Positions 4,598-42,836 of a stretch of 43,613 nt of DNA are shown here, in pieces; positions within the stretch are counted from its first letter, which is position 1; each line of letters starts with the position of its first letter. Below the pieces are notes generated by a model. That model ran no database searches. It was given only the letters and a program-made list of their open reading frames with translations, and was not told where the DNA came from. Position numbers and translations under genes: made by a program. Where the stretch lies: positions 1 to 43,613 of the IMG/VR virus record IMGVR_UViG_3300020459_000020; one strand, written 5' to 3'. This DNA comes from a virus.

Positions 4598-5131
4598 ATG
4601 GCATTTGGATATCTCTTACCTGTATCATCTTTAAACGGACTACCTTGTAGTGGGCATGGTTTATGCTTACCATCTACTGTGCACTCTGTACAGGCGTGTG
4701 GCACCCCTCCAATCCCCTACAGCATAGTCATTAAGGAATATACGTGTTGGTGGCCCCCTCAACCCCTAATTCCTATATTCCCTGTTACTCCATATAGGGC
4801 AACTGTGCAAGTAAATCGGATTCCGATTATGTTACACGGTGATACATTCATGCCACACATAGCGGTATGTACTAATATTGTTGTGTACATGTGTCCTTGT
4901 GGTAAAGCGACCTGTCCAACGCCCACTCCGATACCTTGTAGCACCCTTACAATCGAAGATGGGGGTGGTGTAGGACATACTAGGATCCTTATGGCAACAA
5001 CTTTGACAGTATTTGCTTTGAAATTACCAATTGCTCGTATCTTAGATCCTCTAGGTGTTGGTTTTTCAGGATTTAGTTACCCTTGTTCATCTGTGGTTGC
5101 CTGGGGGCATGCAACTGTGCTATCATCATAG
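4598..5131 (+). CDS. Cysteine-rich PAAR-like candidate spike-tip protein
   Basis: This 177-residue protein has ten cysteines, several histidines and many prolines, and no clear membrane segment. The C-terminal 60 residues follow the PAAR pattern: a short strand, 'LPIARILD' corresponding to the family's G-[KR]-P-[AV]-A-R-x-G-D turn, a loop with 'YPCSS', then 'VAWGHATVL' like the final G-x-x-x-V strand. A 'CPTPTPIPC' segment precedes it. PAAR proteins such as T4 gp5.4 cap the central tail spike with a metal-bound conical tip, and the T4 lineage and contractile injection systems keep this gene near the hub and gp25. Here it lies just upstream of gp25, which supports the call. The ATG at 4598 is one base after the previous stop, and AAGAGG at 4585-4590 is a good Shine-Dalgarno. 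The N-terminal 80 residues are unassigned. The PAAR assignment is by pattern, not by alignment. Confidence 0.6.
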   Translation: MAFGYLLPVSSLNGLPCSGHGLCLPSTVHSVQACGTPPIPYSIVIKEYTCWWPPQPLIPIFPVTPYRATVQVNRIPIMLHGDTFMPHIAVCTNIVVYMCPCGKATCPTPTPIPCSTLTIEDGGGVGHTRILMATTLTVFALKLPIARILDPLGVGFSGFSYPCSSVVAWGHATVLSS

Positions 5132-5345: not shown

Positions 5346-5759
5346 ATGCCTTCTTATAGGTTCAGATCAGAAAAATATGTCAGTAGAGGGTTTAAAGACT
5401 TAGCAACTTCGTTTAATGCTAACCCTGCTACTGGTGATTTTGGTGTGGTTAAGAATGAGAATGCTATTAAGCAATCTGTTCGTAACCTCATCTTAACTAT
5501 GTTCGGAGAAAGACCATTTCAACCCTCCATAGGATCGAAAGTAAGAGAGCTTTTATTTGAACCATGGGATCCATTCAGTGTTGATGCCATGAAAAGTGAG
5601 ATCTATAACGTTATAAACCGACTAGAACCACGTGTTGTATGCACTGGTGTTAGTGTTCGTGATGATTCTGAGGTTAACTCAGTACAAATAGCAATAGATT
5701 ATACGATTGTTGGACAACAGGAAGTCCAAAATGTCGATTTTCTACTAGAAAGAGCATAA
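5346..5759 (+). CDS. gp25: Baseplate wedge protein gp25 (GPW/gp25 family)
   Basis: This 137-residue protein is close to T4 gp25 (132 residues). It has the family hallmarks in order: an N-terminal beta part, then near residues 40-75 'VRNLILTMFGERPFQPSIGS' followed by K-V-R-E-L-L-F-E-P, which is the conserved R-N-L-L-T-x-x-G-E-R-x-x-x-P-x-x-G-[ST] core. The C-terminal strands carry the I-D-Y-x-I pattern. In T4, gp25 binds the gp6 dimer and seeds sheath polymerisation by presenting a sheath-like handshake fold, so it acts at the inner baseplate wedge. The ATG at 5346 is preceded by AAAGG (5332-5336). Its stop is one base before the gp6 ATG, as in the usual gp25-gp6 pair. I am confident of the family. 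Confidence 0.95.
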   Translation: MPSYRFRSEKYVSRGFKDLATSFNANPATGDFGVVKNENAIKQSVRNLILTMFGERPFQPSIGSKVRELLFEPWDPFSVDAMKSEIYNVINRLEPRVVCTGVSVRDDSEVNSVQIAIDYTIVGQQEVQNVDFLLERA

Positions 5760-5760
5760 A

Positions 5761-7860
5761 ATGGCAGCAATTCCATCACAATTAACGTCGCTAGACTTCT
5801 TTGAGATCAAAGAATCCATTAAATCATACCTTAGAACTCGAAAAGAGTTTACTGATTATGATTTTGAGGGTAGTTCTGCATCATATCTGATCGACATACT
5901 AGCATATAACACATATTATACTGCCTTTAACGCTAACATGGCGTTGAATGAAGCATTTTTAGAGACTGCAACGGTTAGAGATAACATTGTAAGGATCGCA
6001 AAGCAGTTAAATTACACTCCAAGGTCAATTAAAGCACCTAGAGCATGTGTAAGAATGACAGCCCAAGCTACAGTTGGTCTAAATGGTACTACTTTTCCAG
6101 AATTTGCTACCTTAAAGAAGGGTGATGTCTTTGTTGCTGACAATGAATATGATACTTACACCTTTGCATTGACTCAGGACATCCAAGTACCTGTAGATAG
6201 TGGTACTGGATTAGCAATATTTGATAATGTCCTAGTATATCAGGGTAATTTATTAACTTACAACTATACAGTTGACTATACTAAGAAGCAAGACTTCGTT
6301 ATTCCCGATGAAAATGTAGATACTGGTCTTTTAACAGTAGATATTTCTCCAACTGCTCAATCATCAGAGACTGATACCTATAGTCCTGCTACAAATGTCA
6401 CAAATTCTGATGGTACATCCAGAATTTACTATCTGGAAGAGACAGATGACATGAGATACCGTCTAGTTTTCGGAGATGGGTCTATTGGACGTAAATTAAT
6501 TGATGGAGAATACATTACTATCACTTATGTCTCTACAGATGGGGTTGAAGCTAACGGTGCAAAGGGTTTTAACTTCATTGGTAACGTAGTTGACAGTGAT
6601 AATAGGGTTATTTCACCTAATTCTATAGCATTAACAACAAAAGACGCTGCTCAAGACGGTGAAGACCGTGAAACAGCACTTTCTGTCAAGTTTAGAGCAC
6701 CTAGAGCGTATGCTACACAAAATAGGGCGGTTACTGAGAATGATTTTGAGCATATTGTCTCTGAAATCTACCCTCAAGCAGCATCTGTAACAGCTTTTGG
6801 TGGTGAGAAGCTATCTCCACCTGTTTATGGTAAGGTTTATGTTGCAATCCGACCAAAAACAGGAAATAAACTCAATGAAACAACTAAACAGAAAATTAAG
6901 AAGGATTTATTGAAGTATTCTGTTGCTTCTATTGAGCCAGTCATCATTGACCCAACAACATTCTATGTTATTCCTAAATCTTACGTTTATTACAACGGAA
7001 ATGACACTAGTTTAACTGGTGCACAACTTGGTACTAAGATTTTACAAGGAATTGACCAATTTAACAGAAATGGTCAGACAGATAGGTTTGGAAATCGTAT
7101 CGATGGATCTAAATTCGGTGCGATGATTGATAATGCTGATAATTCCATATCTGGTAATGTTACTCAGATGACATTAGGTCAGAATTTGGATAAATTCGAG
7201 TTTGGAAGTGTATTTACTCAATGTTTAGACTTTGGTAACCCACTTTATGATCCATCCAACTATTCTGGTAGTCCAAAAGACGGAGATAACACTGGAGATG
7301 ACAATAAGTGTAAGCCATCCTTCTCAACAGTGAAATCTGGTACATTTTATGCTACTGGTTACACTGAAGACCTCGTAAACCTTACTTTAAGTGATGGAAC
7401 TACTTCAGCAGGAGTAACTTCTACTGGAGTATCATCAACTGCTGATAATCAGGTCTTGGTTCCTGTAAATATAAGAGATGACGGTCAGGGTAACCTAATT
7501 CTCGTGACAACAAGGGATGAAACCGAATTAACACTTAATCCTTCAGTAGGAAGTGTTAATTATGCAAGTGGTCAGGTCTGTGTTGGTCCTGTAGCAATAC
7601 AAGGCACCCCAGATGACACTACCAGGTTGCCTATCCAAGTTTTACCTGCTGGTGGATCAATTACGGTACCACCTGGAGTAGATCCTACAATCTTTAACCC
7701 AACAGTCAATCCAATTGACTACACAATCAACGATGTGTCAATTCCTACCTTCGATCCGAATAACTTTAACGGTTATAATTTCGGTGACACAACTGGGATA
7801 AATATTATCGATTATCCAACGGATACTTTCACATATCCAGTCAGCGAATCCTGTTTCTAA
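5761..7860 (+). CDS. gp6: Baseplate wedge subunit gp6 (phage J-like family)
   Basis: This 699-residue protein is slightly longer than T4 gp6 (660). The N-terminus (residues 1-110) carries the family signature: '[LF]DF.EIKESIKSYLR', then 'DYDFEGSSAS', then I-D-I-L-A-Y-N-T-Y-Y and a helix with A-N-M-A-L-N-E-A-F-L-E-T-A. This is the conserved helical segment that dimerises gp6 around the baseplate inner ring. A middle segment 'RLVFGDGSIGRKL' (about residue 235) and 'APRAYATQNRAVTENDFEHI' (about 315) are typical J/gp6 core motifs. The last 170 residues (Thr/Pro/Asn rich) are less conserved. gp6 contacts gp25, gp53 and gp7 in T4 and forms the iris that opens during contraction. It starts one base after the gp25 stop and ends five bases before the giant gene, so all three are likely one transcript. 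Confidence 0.95.
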   Translation: MAAIPSQLTSLDFFEIKESIKSYLRTRKEFTDYDFEGSSASYLIDILAYNTYYTAFNANMALNEAFLETATVRDNIVRIAKQLNYTPRSIKAPRACVRMTAQATVGLNGTTFPEFATLKKGDVFVADNEYDTYTFALTQDIQVPVDSGTGLAIFDNVLVYQGNLLTYNYTVDYTKKQDFVIPDENVDTGLLTVDISPTAQSSETDTYSPATNVTNSDGTSRIYYLEETDDMRYRLVFGDGSIGRKLIDGEYITITYVSTDGVEANGAKGFNFIGNVVDSDNRVISPNSIALTTKDAAQDGEDRETALSVKFRAPRAYATQNRAVTENDFEHIVSEIYPQAASVTAFGGEKLSPPVYGKVYVAIRPKTGNKLNETTKQKIKKDLLKYSVASIEPVIIDPTTFYVIPKSYVYYNGNDTSLTGAQLGTKILQGIDQFNRNGQTDRFGNRIDGSKFGAMIDNADNSISGNVTQMTLGQNLDKFEFGSVFTQCLDFGNPLYDPSNYSGSPKDGDNTGDDNKCKPSFSTVKSGTFYATGYTEDLVNLTLSDGTTSAGVTSTGVSSTADNQVLVPVNIRDDGQGNLILVTTRDETELTLNPSVGSVNYASGQVCVGPVAIQGTPDDTTRLPIQVLPAGGSITVPPGVDPTIFNPTVNPIDYTINDVSIPTFDPNNFNGYNFGDTTGINIIDYPTDTFTYPVSESCF

Positions 7861-36265: not shown

Positions 36266-37861
36266 ATGGCAGCAACAGCTACCTATAATAACGCAACTAA
36301 TGTAATCACAGTAGCATCGACTTTGCTCCCTGCTCCTGTGCTTACTGGTACGTTCCCTAACGATAATAACCCTAACACTATTCAGGAGAAGGATTGGGAC
36401 CATGACTTCTTATACCGTGGAGGAACATTTGGAATTGCTCGCACATTTGATAATACTGGATATACGCACGATGGATTTGTTAGAAGAGTTACTATAAGTG
36501 CTAATGATTTAACTCTTTTTACTGGAAATGCTCCAGATATAAGAGCAGAAGATAATATATTTGTCAATTTTAGTGATGGATTGAAGCAAAAATTCGTATT
36601 TAAGAGCACTACATTCACTTCAATTGATGGTGAGTGTTGGTTATCTTCAGATACAACATTAGATTTCATTGTAGAAGAGCAAGCAACTACTCCTGTAAGT
36701 GGTACATGTCAATATTTTGATCAAAGAAACGGAAGAATTGCTACTCCACTAGGTAAAATTGGTATTGCTGGTAATGGAGTTGCCATTTTTAACCCTTCTG
36801 CTGGTACAGGACTCAACCCACCATCAGGTTTTAGTTGGGTTGCTGCTGGTGACCTACCTTTTGTTAGTTCTGGAGAGGATTCTTGTGGTGGACACCCCAA
36901 TCAACAAGGAGTTTACCACTATCATGACCCACATTTCCTAGATTGTTGGAAAGCAGGGTCTGCAATGGCATCTTATAACGATTATTTTGGTGCAACTCAG
37001 TTTAATGGAGACAATATTCGTCATCCTGACGGTCATTCTAAGATAATTGGTATAGCATTTGATGGATTTCCCATCTATGGACCTTATGGATATAGCACAC
37101 CATTCGATAATTTGAGTGGTACTAGGACAATGAGGACTTCATATGCAGTAAGAGACAGTGAAATAGCTGGGAGACCTGATTATGGGTCTACTACTGACAA
37201 TCCTCCTGCTGGTACATTGATGGAGGACTATGAATATATTGAAGGGACAGGTGATTTAGATACTCATAATGGTAGATTCGCTATTACACCTGAATATCAA
37301 GATGGTACATACGCTTATTTTTTAACTGTTGATGAAACCAATGTAGATAACACTAAGTTTCCATATATTATGGGACTTACAACTAGAGAAACCATTGATA
37401 CTAACTACACACAGGAGAATGTCTCTGAAGGTGGTGGTGGAGATGGTGGTGGAGGCGGTCCTTTACCTATATTATCATTTACATTACAACCACAGAATGC
37501 AACAATCAATGCTGGTCAAACTGCAACGTTTACAGTCCAGAAACTTGTCAGTCCAGAGGACGGACCTGTAGCATTCCAGTGGTATAGATCTACAGATGGT
37601 GGATTTGCCTTTGCTGCTATAACTGGAGCAACAACTAACTCATACTCAGTGACTGCATTGTCTTATATGACTGGGTATAGGTATCGTTGTAGGATCGCTG
37701 GACCTGTGGGAGCACCCGCAGCCGCAGACAACTCACCATTAGATTCAACAGCTGCAACTCTTACTGTTACTGGATCAGGTAGCGGTGGTAGCACAGATAA
37801 TAGATTCGATAGTACTCAGTCTACTCTTGATTCTACATTACAAACTTATGATGGCACCTAA
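36266..37861 (+). CDS. YHYH-domain and Ig-like virion protein
   Basis: This protein has 531 residues. The YHYH tetrad is at residues 217-220 ('GVYHYHDPHFLDCW'). It is followed by 'HSKIIGIAFDGFPIYGPYGY', M-R-T-S-Y, 'GTLMEDYEYIEGTGDLDTHN', G-R-F and 'KFPYIMG', the complete core of the YHYH family (PF14240), a family of unknown biochemical role whose His cluster suggests metal binding. After a poly-Gly linker near residue 393 an Ig-like domain (about 402-505) with 'QPQNATINAGQTATFTV', F-Q-W-Y-R and 'YRYRCRI' follows, then a short Ser/Thr/Asp tail. The N-terminal 200 residues, including 'DHDFLYRGGTFGIAR', are unassigned. The gene lies 14 bases after the giant gene, which carries its own YHYH-type core and C-terminal Ig-like domain. 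A virion surface role is likely by context. No Shine-Dalgarno is evident. Confidence 0.85.
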   Translation: MAATATYNNATNVITVASTLLPAPVLTGTFPNDNNPNTIQEKDWDHDFLYRGGTFGIARTFDNTGYTHDGFVRRVTISANDLTLFTGNAPDIRAEDNIFVNFSDGLKQKFVFKSTTFTSIDGECWLSSDTTLDFIVEEQATTPVSGTCQYFDQRNGRIATPLGKIGIAGNGVAIFNPSAGTGLNPPSGFSWVAAGDLPFVSSGEDSCGGHPNQQGVYHYHDPHFLDCWKAGSAMASYNDYFGATQFNGDNIRHPDGHSKIIGIAFDGFPIYGPYGYSTPFDNLSGTRTMRTSYAVRDSEIAGRPDYGSTTDNPPAGTLMEDYEYIEGTGDLDTHNGRFAITPEYQDGTYAYFLTVDETNVDNTKFPYIMGLTTRETIDTNYTQENVSEGGGGDGGGGGPLPILSFTLQPQNATINAGQTATFTVQKLVSPEDGPVAFQWYRSTDGGFAFAAITGATTNSYSVTALSYMTGYRYRCRIAGPVGAPAAADNSPLDSTAATLTVTGSGSGGSTDNRFDSTQSTLDSTLQTYDGT

Positions 37862-37884: not shown

Positions 37885-39363
37885 ATGGCAAAGCAAAACC
37901 TTAATATCGGATCATCGGCAAACGATGGGACTGGTGACAGTCTGAGAGATGGTGCTATCAAATTAAATAGCGTCATCGATGAATTGTACACCAATCTTGG
38001 TAATAATACCAATCTACAAATTAACGTAGGCACTCCGTCTACTGGACAACTACTTAAATGGAATGGTGCTCAGTTTGCTGAGGGAAATTTTGATGCTTTT
38101 TCTTCTGATGTAGATGTTAATGGTAATAAAATTGTATCAACAGCAAATGGTGACATAACTATCCAACCACATGGTAGTGGAGATATTAAGCTATGGGCTG
38201 GCGGTACGGGATCTGCTTTAACATACATCGATGGTGCTGATGGTAAGTTAAAATATACTAATGCTTTCCCTACTACTGGAGATCTTCCTGACAATGCAAC
38301 TCATGAAGGTATGTTTGCGTATGTATCTGCTGATGGTGCTGCAAGATATGCAACAAGTGGTGGTTGGAAGAAAATTATAGGTGAAGATCATAGTATTGGT
38401 GATCTTACTGATGTAGATATGACTGTTGGAGGTGGACCTTCTGACGGACAGGTGATAAAATGGAACACTGCAACTAGCAATTGGGAACCTGCTAATGATG
38501 ACTCATCAGGTGGGGGTGGTGGAGGCACTACTCAAAACTTATTTGAAACTATTAATGCTGACACTGGTACAACAACAGCATCTGCTGCTACAGACACATT
38601 AATATTCGCTGGTGGTACGAATATTTCCACCGCTATCACAGGAGATACCGTCACTATTACTATGACTGGTGCTCTTGGAGATGCCAACCAAAATGCTTAC
38701 GGAATTATAGGAAGTGACTCAGGAAACAAAACCGCAGCCAGTGCAACTGCTACTATTAACCTCATTGGTGGGACTGGTGTTAGTACTGCTATCAATGGAG
38801 ATAATCTCACAATTACTAATGACTCGCCAAATATAGCACAAAATATATTTGCTACTGTCACTGGTGATACTGGCACAACTACTGCTAACACTACAACAGA
38901 TACATTAACTATTGCTGGTGGTACTGGAGTTACCACAGCAGTGTCTGGTGATACATTGACAATAAATGCTGATTCTGCACTGCCATCAGCTAATGGCAAC
39001 GATAATATCATCTATAACGGATCTAGTTGGGATGCTGTAGAAAGTCCTACAATAGGATTTGATGTTACTTCTAATGGATCATCAGCATATAGATTTGCTG
39101 GTGGTGGTGTTAATGCTTCTACAGATGATCCAACAATCTATGTGTATAGAGGATTTACATATAGATTTAATAATATAACTGGGGCAGGTCACCCATTTGC
39201 TTTAAGGCAAACATCAGGTGGTACAGCAGTAACAGAAGGTGTTACTGGTAGTGATCAAGGTGTCCAGTACTGGACAGTCCCAATGGCTTTAGCAGCTGGT
39301 ACAACTTATGTTTATCAATGCACATTACACCCAGCAATGGTAGGAAACTTAACGGTAGTCTAA
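37885..39363 (+). CDS. Tail-fibre-like protein with C-terminal cupredoxin-like domain
   Basis: This is a 492-residue protein. Residues 5-40 contain 'LNIGSSANDGTGDSLRDG', a signature common at the start of phage fibre proteins. A 'IGDLTDVDM...GQVIKWN...W' segment near 170-200 is also typical of fibres. After a poly-Gly linker come three repeats of about 48 residues (about 217-365), each 'QN-x-[FY] ... D-[ST]-G ... GGT-[GN]-[IV]-[ST]-T-A-[IV]-[ST/N]-G-D-x-[LV]-T-I'. Residues about 388-492 look like a small cupredoxin: strands 'IYVYRGFTYRF', then His436 (GHPF), 'YWTVPMALAAGTTYVYQC' with Cys479, His482 and Met485, ending M-V-G-N-L-T-V-V. His, Cys, His and Met are the type-1 copper ligands, with C-x2-H-x2-M spacing. 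No signal peptide is present. Copper binding is inference. Confidence 0.82.
   Translation: MAKQNLNIGSSANDGTGDSLRDGAIKLNSVIDELYTNLGNNTNLQINVGTPSTGQLLKWNGAQFAEGNFDAFSSDVDVNGNKIVSTANGDITIQPHGSGDIKLWAGGTGSALTYIDGADGKLKYTNAFPTTGDLPDNATHEGMFAYVSADGAARYATSGGWKKIIGEDHSIGDLTDVDMTVGGGPSDGQVIKWNTATSNWEPANDDSSGGGGGGTTQNLFETINADTGTTTASAATDTLIFAGGTNISTAITGDTVTITMTGALGDANQNAYGIIGSDSGNKTAASATATINLIGGTGVSTAINGDNLTITNDSPNIAQNIFATVTGDTGTTTANTTTDTLTIAGGTGVTTAVSGDTLTINADSALPSANGNDNIIYNGSSWDAVESPTIGFDVTSNGSSAYRFAGGGVNASTDDPTIYVYRGFTYRFNNITGAGHPFALRQTSGGTAVTEGVTGSDQGVQYWTVPMALAAGTTYVYQCTLHPAMVGNLTVV
38533..38970 (+). repeat. Three tandem 'DTGTTTA ... GGTG ... GDT' protein repeats
   Basis: Three units of about 48 codons begin with QNLF, QNAY and QNIF and contain D-[TS]-G, a [TA]-[TA]-T-[DI]-[TN]-L strand, G-G-T-[GN]-[IV]-[ST]-T-A and G-D-[TN]-[VL]-T-I. 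They are clearly homologous but diverged at both protein and DNA level, so they are an old tandem duplication. They resemble beta-stranded fibre-shaft repeats. Confidence 0.75.
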
Positions 39364-39364
39364 T

Positions 39365-41266
39365 ATGGCAGTAAGAACAGTCCCAGGTAGCGGTGCTTCT
39401 ATTATCCCAATATTCAATAGTATATTTGGGGTAAGGGATGTTTATGTACAGAGTGGTGGTAGTGGTTATGATGCTAATGATCCTCCTAGACTGAGGATAG
39501 AAAATTGTGGCACTCCTATTAGGGATGCTGTATTAAGAGCAGTTATTGAAGGAGATGGTGGTGAGATTACTGCTGTAGAAGTATTAGATCCAGGTGAAGG
39601 ATATGACCCTCTAAGATTACAAATTCAAGATACTAGTAGTGATGGATCTGCTAAAGGTAATATCTACCTGAAAGCAGATGGTTCCGTAGACTTCATTCAG
39701 ATGACGGTACCAGGTGATAATTATTTTGATGCTAATGCTGCTGTTATAGGTGGTGGTGGATCTGGATCTGAATTGGTACCAGTTACGGGGTTGATTACTA
39801 GTCTTGCTATTACAGATGAAGGTCGTAACTACACAGAGGAAGACGTAAATCTTATCATTAGCGGTGGAGGTGGCCAAGGTGCTACTGGTGTTGCTAATGT
39901 CAATCAGTTTGGTCAAGTTTCTTCTATTACATTAACTAATCAAGGTGAATTCTTTGAGACTCCTCCACTTATACAGTTGATTAAAGGTGGTGGATCGGGT
40001 GCTACTGCTGAGGCATTCATTAACCTTGGTAAGATCACCAACATAGATCTATTGACAGGTGGTGGAGGATATGTTACACCTCCAGAGGTTATCTTTACTA
40101 GAGATACTGATCTTATTCGTGAAGCGAGAAATAGACAGTCATTAAACTCAACTGTTTATAATATAACTGGACTAACCCAGAATGTTAACTCAAGCACAGG
40201 TACTTTATTTGTCCAGACTACTGATCCATATGCAGGTTCTGGTAAAATTCTCCTTGGTAGAGAGATAATAAGGTATACAGGTAAACTTGCGGTATCTAAT
40301 GGTGATGCTTATGATGCATTCACTGGTTGTGATAGGGGTGTTAATTTCCGTTTTGACCAAAAGGTTATACTTGATAACTTACAGGATAATCCTGATACAG
40401 GATTGACTGCATATAGTTTCCAAGTAACTGACAAAGTTAGAAGAGTTGTTGAATCTTCAAACAACCGAGTTGCTATTGTATATGACTGGGATGTTGCTCA
40501 AAGAGCATTATATCTTACCTTTGAAATTGATGAATTGGCATTCATTGATGGAGGTAGATCTAACGAGAAGTCAACTATAGTTGCATTCGTTGCAGGTGTT
40601 GCTGGATCTAGTGGCACTGGTATAGAACCACATGTTTTAGTTGAGGTTGATGGAGAAGATATTATTGCATTTACCGATCCTTTAAGTCTTATTCTTAACA
40701 GAAGGTTTGAAGATGATGATGAGGAATATGAAGATGAAAATGGTGTGATGCAACAAGGTGATGGTATTATCGATTTAGTTAATACTGGTACTGAGTATGA
40801 AAATCAAATTAATTTAGACGGTGGTATTGCATCATCTAAATATGGTATAGAGGAAACTCTTGGTGGACAAAATACTACGCTATTCCAAGCAGGTGATCAG
40901 ATATATGATGGTAACGCTAACTCATTAGTCGCTACTATTCAGTCTGCTGGTGCATTAGGTGATGGGGATGCTCATACATCTACTGCTGATATTATTGTTG
41001 AGTATTTAAATACTCAAACATTTAATGCTGATGAAGCATTACTAGGTAGTACTACAGCAATGTCTGCTAGGTCAACTGCCATCGTTAGTGGACCTGTTAT
41101 TGGTACTAACGAAAATCTCCATACATTATCAATAAAAGATATTGTAGCAAATGATCCGAATTACTTGTGGGCGGTTGGAGAAAATATACAAGGAGCTACA
41201 TCTGGTGCTGTTGGCAAGATATATTCTGTTGAATATACTAGTGCCGTCAGAAACGAAGATGAATAA
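39365..41266 (+). CDS. GxGY-repeat virion structural protein
   Basis: This is a 633-residue protein starting one base after the previous stop. Residues about 20-250 hold GxGY-type repeats (GSGYD, GEGYD, GDNYF, GRNYT, GEFFE, GGGYV) alternating with Gly-rich turns such as GGGGSGSE, GGGGQGATG and GGGSGATA, the same unit as in the giant gene. Residues about 270-335 contain the small beta module 'LFVQTTDPYAGSGKILLG', E-I-I-R-Y-T and 'AFTGCDRG', related to 'IIRINDVEQVQY ... ECTRSKN'-type segments of the giant gene. An acidic run (DDDEEYEDE, near residue 455) and a final 'GENIQGATSGAVGKIYSVEY' module follow. No enzyme motif, signal peptide or membrane helix is seen. Position before gp8 and shared modules indicate a baseplate or fibre-associated structural protein; the exact role is unknown. 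Confidence 0.8.
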   Translation: MAVRTVPGSGASIIPIFNSIFGVRDVYVQSGGSGYDANDPPRLRIENCGTPIRDAVLRAVIEGDGGEITAVEVLDPGEGYDPLRLQIQDTSSDGSAKGNIYLKADGSVDFIQMTVPGDNYFDANAAVIGGGGSGSELVPVTGLITSLAITDEGRNYTEEDVNLIISGGGGQGATGVANVNQFGQVSSITLTNQGEFFETPPLIQLIKGGGSGATAEAFINLGKITNIDLLTGGGGYVTPPEVIFTRDTDLIREARNRQSLNSTVYNITGLTQNVNSSTGTLFVQTTDPYAGSGKILLGREIIRYTGKLAVSNGDAYDAFTGCDRGVNFRFDQKVILDNLQDNPDTGLTAYSFQVTDKVRRVVESSNNRVAIVYDWDVAQRALYLTFEIDELAFIDGGRSNEKSTIVAFVAGVAGSSGTGIEPHVLVEVDGEDIIAFTDPLSLILNRRFEDDDEEYEDENGVMQQGDGIIDLVNTGTEYENQINLDGGIASSKYGIEETLGGQNTTLFQAGDQIYDGNANSLVATIQSAGALGDGDAHTSTADIIVEYLNTQTFNADEALLGSTTAMSARSTAIVSGPVIGTNENLHTLSIKDIVANDPNYLWAVGENIQGATSGAVGKIYSVEYTSAVRNEDE

Positions 41267-41300: not shown

Positions 41301-42836
41301 ATGGCGTTACTTACCGACCAATTTAGAATCTTTACTGCCGAGAGGTTTAGAAAGGCACTAGAAGGACCAGATCCTACACAGTCAGACCTGTTGGCAGGTA
41401 GTGCTAGAGATCGTCTTTATGTGTTCATAGGCAGACCCCAACCTTGGGATAATGAGAATGCACCTCCAGACCCAGTAGATTCATTCCAAGAATTCTCGGA
41501 TGACTATTCGGATATGATCTCTCTGAAGAGAGTGTTAGCAAATGACACTATTCAGGTGGTCAGGCGTACCGACTGGATTCCCCCAGAGCAAACCACTGGT
41601 GGATTGGGTTACGTTTATGATATGTATCGTCATGATTACTCCTCGACTAAAACTGCATCATCGGGTGCGACTAAACTTTACGACTCTGATTTCTACGTTG
41701 TTAACTCGTCGTATCAGACTTATAAATGCATTTACAACGGGACATCTCCTTCTGATCCTAACGGTAAACCTTCTACTGTTGAGCCCACAGGGACATCAAC
41801 ATCTGTTATCACGACTGCTGATGGCTACCGTTGGAAGTATATGTACACGATCCCTGTTGGTCAAGTCTTAAAATTCTTCTCTAATGAATATATGCCAGTG
41901 TTGACAGACACTGCTGTTGTTGCTGATGCTATCGGTGGAGAGATTGACACTATCATTATCGGTTCATCTGGTAGTGGTTATAACAATGGTACCTACGAAA
42001 ACGTTCCTATTAAAGGAGACGGTGTAGGTGGTAGAGTTTCACTTGTTGTAGATGGTGGTCGTATTGCTTCTGCTACTGTTACATCTGGTGGATCTGGATA
42101 TACTTTTGGTAAGGTTGTGATCGATGAAGTCAACGGTATTGGTGCTGGAACAGGTACTGGTGGATTCGTTGAAGTTGTTATCCCACCATCACTAGGACAT
42201 GGTGCTTCTCCAGCAACAGAGTTGGGTGGTTTCCGTGTAATGATTAACACGAAGTTTACCTACGATGAAGGATCTGGTGACTTCCCAACTGATAACGACT
42301 ATCGTCGTATTGGTTTGGTAATTAATCCTAACAAGTTTGGTACTCAAGAGTTAACCTCAGATTTAACATTGAGTGCAACAAAAGCGTCTATATTTGCACC
42401 TACGTTTACTGGTAACTTCCAAACAGATGAGATTATCACACAATCTCGTACTGTTGGTGGACAGCAGGTAACAGCAAGAGGACGTGTCATATCATGGAAT
42501 AGTACCACTAAAGTACTTAAATATTATCAGAATAGAGTTGACGGTATCTTCCCTGAATTTACTGGTAACCTAATCGAGTTTGAAGGCGGTAACCCAATTG
42601 TGGGTGCTACTTCAGGTGCATCTGCTGACCCAGACATCAACTTCCCAATTGTTTCAGGATCCTCAACAAGGGTTATAAACAATGCAGAATATGATCTAGG
42701 TATGGCATTCACTAATGGTTATGCAAAAGCAGAAGTAGATCCAAACTCAGGTGATGTGATCTACATAGATAATAGAGGTGCGATTACTCGTGCTGGTGAC
42801 CAGATAGAAGATATCAAAATCGTAATCGAGTTCTAA
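41301..42836 (+). CDS. gp8: Baseplate wedge subunit gp8, enlarged
   Basis: The T4 gp8 signature is clear: 'YVFIGRPQPWDNENAPPDPVDS' split as G-R-x-x-P-W then P-P-x-P-x-D-S (about residues 46-65), 'SDMISLKRVL', V-x-R-x-D-W (about 86-92), the I/V-E-P-x-G motif near residue 160 and 'DGYRWKYMYTIPVGQ' with N-E-Y near 175-200. T4 gp8 (334 residues) forms a dimer in the wedge with gp7, gp10 and gp53. At 511 residues this protein is markedly longer. The excess includes a GxGY insertion at about 211-310 (GSGYNN, GSGYTF, Gly-rich turns), exactly the repeat type of the neighbouring structural genes. The C-terminal part ends with a beta segment 'GDVIYIDNRGAITRAGDQIEDIKIVIEF', comparable in position to the T4 end 'NRPPI...EEINILF'. 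I am confident of the family; the insertion's role is unknown. Confidence 0.92.
   Translation: MALLTDQFRIFTAERFRKALEGPDPTQSDLLAGSARDRLYVFIGRPQPWDNENAPPDPVDSFQEFSDDYSDMISLKRVLANDTIQVVRRTDWIPPEQTTGGLGYVYDMYRHDYSSTKTASSGATKLYDSDFYVVNSSYQTYKCIYNGTSPSDPNGKPSTVEPTGTSTSVITTADGYRWKYMYTIPVGQVLKFFSNEYMPVLTDTAVVADAIGGEIDTIIIGSSGSGYNNGTYENVPIKGDGVGGRVSLVVDGGRIASATVTSGGSGYTFGKVVIDEVNGIGAGTGTGGFVEVVIPPSLGHGASPATELGGFRVMINTKFTYDEGSGDFPTDNDYRRIGLVINPNKFGTQELTSDLTLSATKASIFAPTFTGNFQTDEIITQSRTVGGQQVTARGRVISWNSTTKVLKYYQNRVDGIFPEFTGNLIEFEGGNPIVGATSGASADPDINFPIVSGSSTRVINNAEYDLGMAFTNGYAKAEVDPNSGDVIYIDNRGAITRAGDQIEDIKIVIEF

Follow-up and report, generated by a model that had tools for sequence, protein, structure and literature searches.

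On a 43.6-kb fragment, a marine T4-like cyanophage encodes a gp9-type baseplate protein that ends in a cupredoxin domain with a predicted type-1 copper site. We consider it probable (roughly 70%) that this copper site is functional, sits on the virion and is maintained by selection. The fragment (IMG/VR record IMGVR_UViG_3300020459_000020) was analysed over its whole length of 43,613 nucleotides, hereafter the window. It contains a baseplate wedge cluster, with the following features.

5346-5759: gp25
5761-7860: gp6
7866-36251: single ORF of 9461 aa within the baseplate cluster
36266-37861, plus strand: YHYH-domain virion protein, immediately 5' of gp9 (YHYH domain ~36746-37345; PF14240, 128.3 bits; phrog_25852)
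37885-39363, plus strand: gp9-type baseplate wedge/tail-fibre connector (492 aa, ORF intact)
37891-38100, plus strand: T4 gp9/gp10-like N-terminal baseplate-binding region (aa 3-72, PF07880 match)
39037-39360, plus strand: C-terminal cupredoxin domain (aa 385-492, ~108 residues; fold prediction and profile match)
39365-41266: baseplate protein without a name
41301-42836: gp8

The ORF at 37885-39363 matches phrog_677 (baseplate wedge tail fiber protein connector) with E=4e-148, and its N-terminal region scores 38.3 bits against PF07880 (T4_gp9_10_N), for which the cut-off is 25. It shares this baseplate-binding region with gp9/gp10 of phage T4 and has the gp8, gp6 and gp25 neighbours in common with it. 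The ORF is the T4 gp9-type connector between baseplate wedge and tail fibre of a marine T4-like cyanophage. The initial annotation had placed the domain at the C-terminus of a fibre-like virion protein; the C-terminal position and the assignment to the virion stand, while "gp9-type connector" describes the protein more exactly than "fibre". The same gene is found in P-TIM40, S-SSM5, S-SM1 and other phages, its neighbours in the P-TIM40 and S-WAM1 isolates resemble those in the window, and for the proteome of S-SM1, taken as a whole, there is direct virion evidence. Elsewhere in the window, positions 4598-5131 encode a protein of 177 aa that contains 10 Cys and has a PAAR-like match (phrog_281).

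The C-terminal domain lies where it had first been placed (39046-39360) but is slightly longer, starting at about 39037 (aa 385). AlphaFold2, using an alignment of 86 sequences, modelled residues 385-492 as a Greek-key β-sandwich of the cupredoxin fold with a mean pLDDT of 96.3. In a Foldseek search of the PDB, the top matches were amicyanin, rusticyanin, plastocyanin and copper nitrite reductases. The best VIA-align match, after leaving out those with Z below 8, was the N-terminal cupredoxin domain of a Hyphomicrobium nitrite reductase (Z 10.3, 91 residues aligned, rmsd 2.2). The cupredoxin-like fold that had been proposed from the sequence was thus predicted with high confidence, and its clearest structural matches are blue-copper proteins.

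A relationship to proven blue copper proteins was also found at the sequence level. When a profile built from 65 phage domains (profile A1) was compared with the PDB, it matched amicyanin with E=4.1e-7, the phage ligands being in register with those of amicyanin, followed by plastocyanins (1e-4), rusticyanin and auracyanin. Searched on its own, the domain sequence from the window reached amicyanin only marginally (E=0.54). The Pfam family PF00127 (Copper-bind) scores 14.5 bits on the window domain, below its gathering cut-off of 21.2, and we therefore file the domain under the cupredoxin superfamily, outside PF00127 proper; a homologue (L089:6035-6376) clears the cut-off with 23.6 bits. Together, the profile match and the fold evidence rule out a chance motif. 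In a monomer model of full-length gp9, the C-terminal domain is confident and most of the rest is weak, except for part of the middle, which agrees with the domain being a separate terminal module. Scoring the 9461-aa ORF and the other ORFs of the window for further cupredoxin copies gave background only, with none significant.

Four residues of the domain had been singled out as ligands, and each lies at the position given for it, in the order and spacing of a type-1 site (His...Cys-x(n)-His-x(n)-Met), aligned on the ligands of amicyanin.

39190-39192, plus strand: His436 codon, predicted Cu ligand 1; invariant in 125 gp9 domains, at least 18 synonymous changes
39319-39321, plus strand: Cys479 codon, predicted Cu thiolate ligand; invariant in 125, at least 13 synonymous changes
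39328-39330, plus strand: His482 codon, predicted Cu ligand 3; invariant in 125, at least 25 synonymous changes
39337-39339, plus strand: Met485 codon, predicted axial Cu ligand; invariant in 125, single codon and hence no synonymous test

The spacing, H-x42-C-x2-H-x2-M, is of the amicyanin type, and Cys479 is the only Cys in the gp9 protein of the window. The 125 gp9 domains compared are distinct at the DNA level, and the wider set of relatives extends down to ~32% identity. On the tree of these 125 domains, the median site underwent 12 amino-acid changes and the four ligands 0. Since the ligand residues did not change once despite the many synonymous changes in their codons, it is selection, not recent descent, that has preserved them. 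The annotation had made its case depend on homologues not freely losing the Cys or His ligands, and none was lost in the 125 domains. Because our earlier scan pattern had included Cys and His, we also fetched gp9 by its N-terminus, so that the sequences were not chosen by their ligands. The ligand set HCHM was kept in all 44 distinct complete proteins obtained in this way, and the fetched gp9 proteins of cultured phages agree. We did not count L132, L133 and L136, three ORFs of 238 aa whose N-terminus is gp9-like but which have no cupredoxin and look like another short protein.

The residue after the first His sets the phage domain apart. In small blue copper proteins this position is usually held by Asn or Ser, which forms a hydrogen bond to the Cys sulphur. 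Amicyanin has His followed by Asn (HN), whereas the phage domain has His followed by Pro (HPF), and this Pro437 is invariant in the 125 gp9 domains. The predicted copper site may therefore be unusual, and from what is generally known of such sites Pro437 predicts an altered potential or colour.

An internal control is provided by the YHYH protein. Several cyanophages have an insert in the YHYH protein adjoining gp9 that is a related cupredoxin-like domain; the YHYH protein of the window is without one. The insert has kept C-x2-H-x2-M in L081, L082, L090 and the freshwater actinobacterial phage DSL-LC01 (L263), and is without the ligands in L076, L079, L141, L148, L152, L067, L080 and L259. In the loci with ligandless inserts, gp9 kept its ligands where examined. 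The weakest inserts match the intact profile with E of only ~1e-2 to 1e-5, so that their homology rests also on position and length. Since inserts have often lost the ligands, the cupredoxin fold does not need them, and the contrast between gp9 and the inserts points to a fold that can do without a metal site and to a specific requirement for that site in gp9. The insertion point is near the same position of the YHYH profile (~155-172 of 218) in cyanophages and in DSL-LC01 (L263:1646-3016).

Using tblastn (E<=0.01), we found the domain in 331 phage records. Going by organism name, 326 of these come from Synechococcus phages, cyanophages or Prochlorococcus phages; the other five comprise four marine single-cell viruses and a record called simply "Phage". 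Enterobacterial T4-like phages share the N-terminus of gp9, but the cupredoxin domain found no match in them by tblastn. More distant queries added the actinobacterial phage DSL-LC01 and the podovirus P-SCSP2. This host restriction is partly confounded with the shared descent of the phages. Other proteins that bear copies of the domain are proximal tail fibres, tail spikes with S74 chaperones, collagen-like fibres and S8 protease proteins, and cyanophages without a detectable PF07880 gp9 (S-H9-1, ACG-2014i, P-SSM5 and P-HM1) carry it on those other tail or S8 proteins.

A longer gp9 of ~638 aa (L019, L020, L021, L025, L026, L028 and L093) has a second, upstream cupredoxin-like domain in which a CHHHTGQ loop replaces C-x2-H-x2-M. 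Cyanophage virion-region proteins in L085, L086 and L088 (L242, L243) combine an S8 protease of the subtilisin type with either one cupredoxin domain or two. A 188-kb Bacteroidota contig in the Nonlabens xiamenensis assembly (NZ_RMVE01000006.1; L149, L266 and L269) encodes gp9 and YHYH proteins at cyanophage-like identity (70%), for which reason it is probably a phage contig within that assembly.

The YHYH gene lies directly 5' of gp9 in 169 of the 182 loci with enough upstream sequence. Among the 30 best-scoring YHYH loci of Bacteroidia (L271-L300), which are mutually related and do not count as 30 independent cases, 23 have a neighbour with two CxxCH haem motifs, and all three of these neighbours that were scanned with Pfam proved to be CCP_MauG. 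YHYH repeatedly accompanies redox metalloproteins, and the MauG-like di-haem protein is a possible redox partner for it. A zinc-dependent hydrolase is what PMC7824862 predicts YHYH to be; the company it keeps is a reason to doubt this prediction, without excluding it. The YHYH context slightly favours a redox role for the copper site over a purely structural one. The axial Met, dispensable in a purely structural site, is strictly retained, and this tips the balance slightly in the same direction.

Copper binding is predicted from the fold, the ligands and the selection acting on them, and we think it likely that the site holds copper in the virion. On this reading the C-terminus of gp9, a true cupredoxin, bears an intact type-1 site of the amicyanin kind and is located on the baseplate where gp9 joins the tail fibres. 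Copper would be picked up after assembly or release, because free copper is scarce in the host cytosol. The Cu(I)/Cu(II) centre may work together with the adjacent, probably metal-binding YHYH protein at the baseplate as the virion meets the cyanobacterial envelope. A redox role with the YHYH protein is the most likely of the roles, and we favour it tentatively; its more specific form, in which the gp9 cupredoxin and YHYH make up a copper-dependent redox pair acting on the host envelope at infection, is doubtful. The adjacency in 169 of 182 loci, the cupredoxin within the YHYH protein of other phages and the di-haem MauG-like neighbours in 23 of 30 loci hint at redox use. On the other hand, adjacency within a baseplate operon may be structural only, the window's own YHYH protein is without the insert, and the prediction of a zinc-dependent hydrolase (PMC7824862) points elsewhere. 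Type-1 sites are moreover rigid, contrary to what a redox-driven shape switch would call for.

The copper might instead be purely structural, stabilising a rigid docking or adhesion module at the junction of gp9 and the fibre with no electron transfer. Among the metals of the T4 tail, zinc in gp12 and iron in gp37 would be comparable in use. The modular domain, recurring on proximal tail fibres, tail spikes, and S74 chaperone and S8 protease proteins, would suit such a part. Many blue-copper proteins tolerate a change of the axial ligand, and a structural site should do so as well, yet Met485 is constant in gp9; the ligandless YHYH inserts also show that the fold stands metal-free. Metal-bearing fibre tips are known, T4 gp37 with its iron being the case cited in PMC11705849. 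On balance, we regard a purely structural copper as possible but on the unlikely side. Copper capture, in which copper-loaded virions would bind a copper receptor of the host outer membrane or a copper-binding protein, would carry over to copper the "Ferrojan horse" idea put forward for the iron of phage tails. It fits with nearly all records being phages of marine picocyanobacteria and with the proposal that marine phage tails are carriers of metal ligands (PMC11705849), but the host restriction is confounded with common phage ancestry, the host receptor would be a hypothetical one, and type-1 copper, tightly held and partly buried, is poorly suited to display. We find this improbable.

There is a similarly slim chance that the conserved site binds another metal or serves metal-free, for instance as a reactive Cys/His pair. 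Cys-His2-Met sites are generally known to accept Zn, Co or Ag in vitro; however, all four ligands including the Met are kept together with an amicyanin-like loop, and a reactive pair would have no need for both His436 and Met485. The annotation had also offered a retained fold without metal as an option. The ligandless relatives within YHYH proteins show that such a state occurs, but for gp9 a functionless site is hardly credible, with 0 ligand losses in 125 domains against many synonymous changes at those codons, intact ligands in 44 of 44 proteins selected by their N-terminus, and no complete gp9 homologue with ligand loss.

A functional type-1 copper site on the virion thus remains our preferred reading, and it can be set against several known systems. 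Amicyanin of Paracoccus (PDB 1aac/1sfd) shares the cupredoxin fold and the ligand order, with the loop CTPHPFM as against CTLHPAM in the phage, but is a free periplasmic electron carrier, whereas the phage domain forms the C-terminus of a virion baseplate protein. The N-terminal cupredoxin of the Hyphomicrobium denitrificans nitrite reductase (2dv6, 6tfo) is part of an enzyme and has ~25% identity. The window protein is a member of phrog_677, and the profile of this family itself holds the domain at positions 302-409 of 412; its description speaks of a connector only and does not mention copper or cupredoxin. Cyanophages are also known to carry petE (plastocyanin) as an auxiliary metabolic gene (noted in PMC3037559). 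This is a phage-borne blue copper protein associated with the same hosts, but a soluble electron carrier of host type and not a virion domain. In the open-licence literature, we found no description of this domain, nor of a phage virion that bears a cupredoxin or a copper site. The gp9 domain, a cupredoxin whose predicted type-1 copper site is under selection, presents a known fold in a new setting on a virion protein. To our knowledge, a gp9-YHYH redox pair, if real, would be the first electron-transfer module on the virion of a tailed phage.

As the domain is small and conserved in cultured phages such as P-TIM40, S-SSM5 and S-SM1, the site is directly testable. The YHYH domain is itself unexplained, and its link to MauG-like proteins offers a lead on its function that can likewise be tested. 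The hosts are the most numerous photosynthetic bacteria of the ocean, and T4-like cyanophages themselves belong to the commonest viruses of the sea. Should their baseplates hold copper, a new kind of redox metal would be added to iron and zinc among the tail cofactors, the virions would constitute a small pool of copper ligands in the ocean, and infection of the Prochlorococcus and Synechococcus hosts could depend on the speciation of copper.
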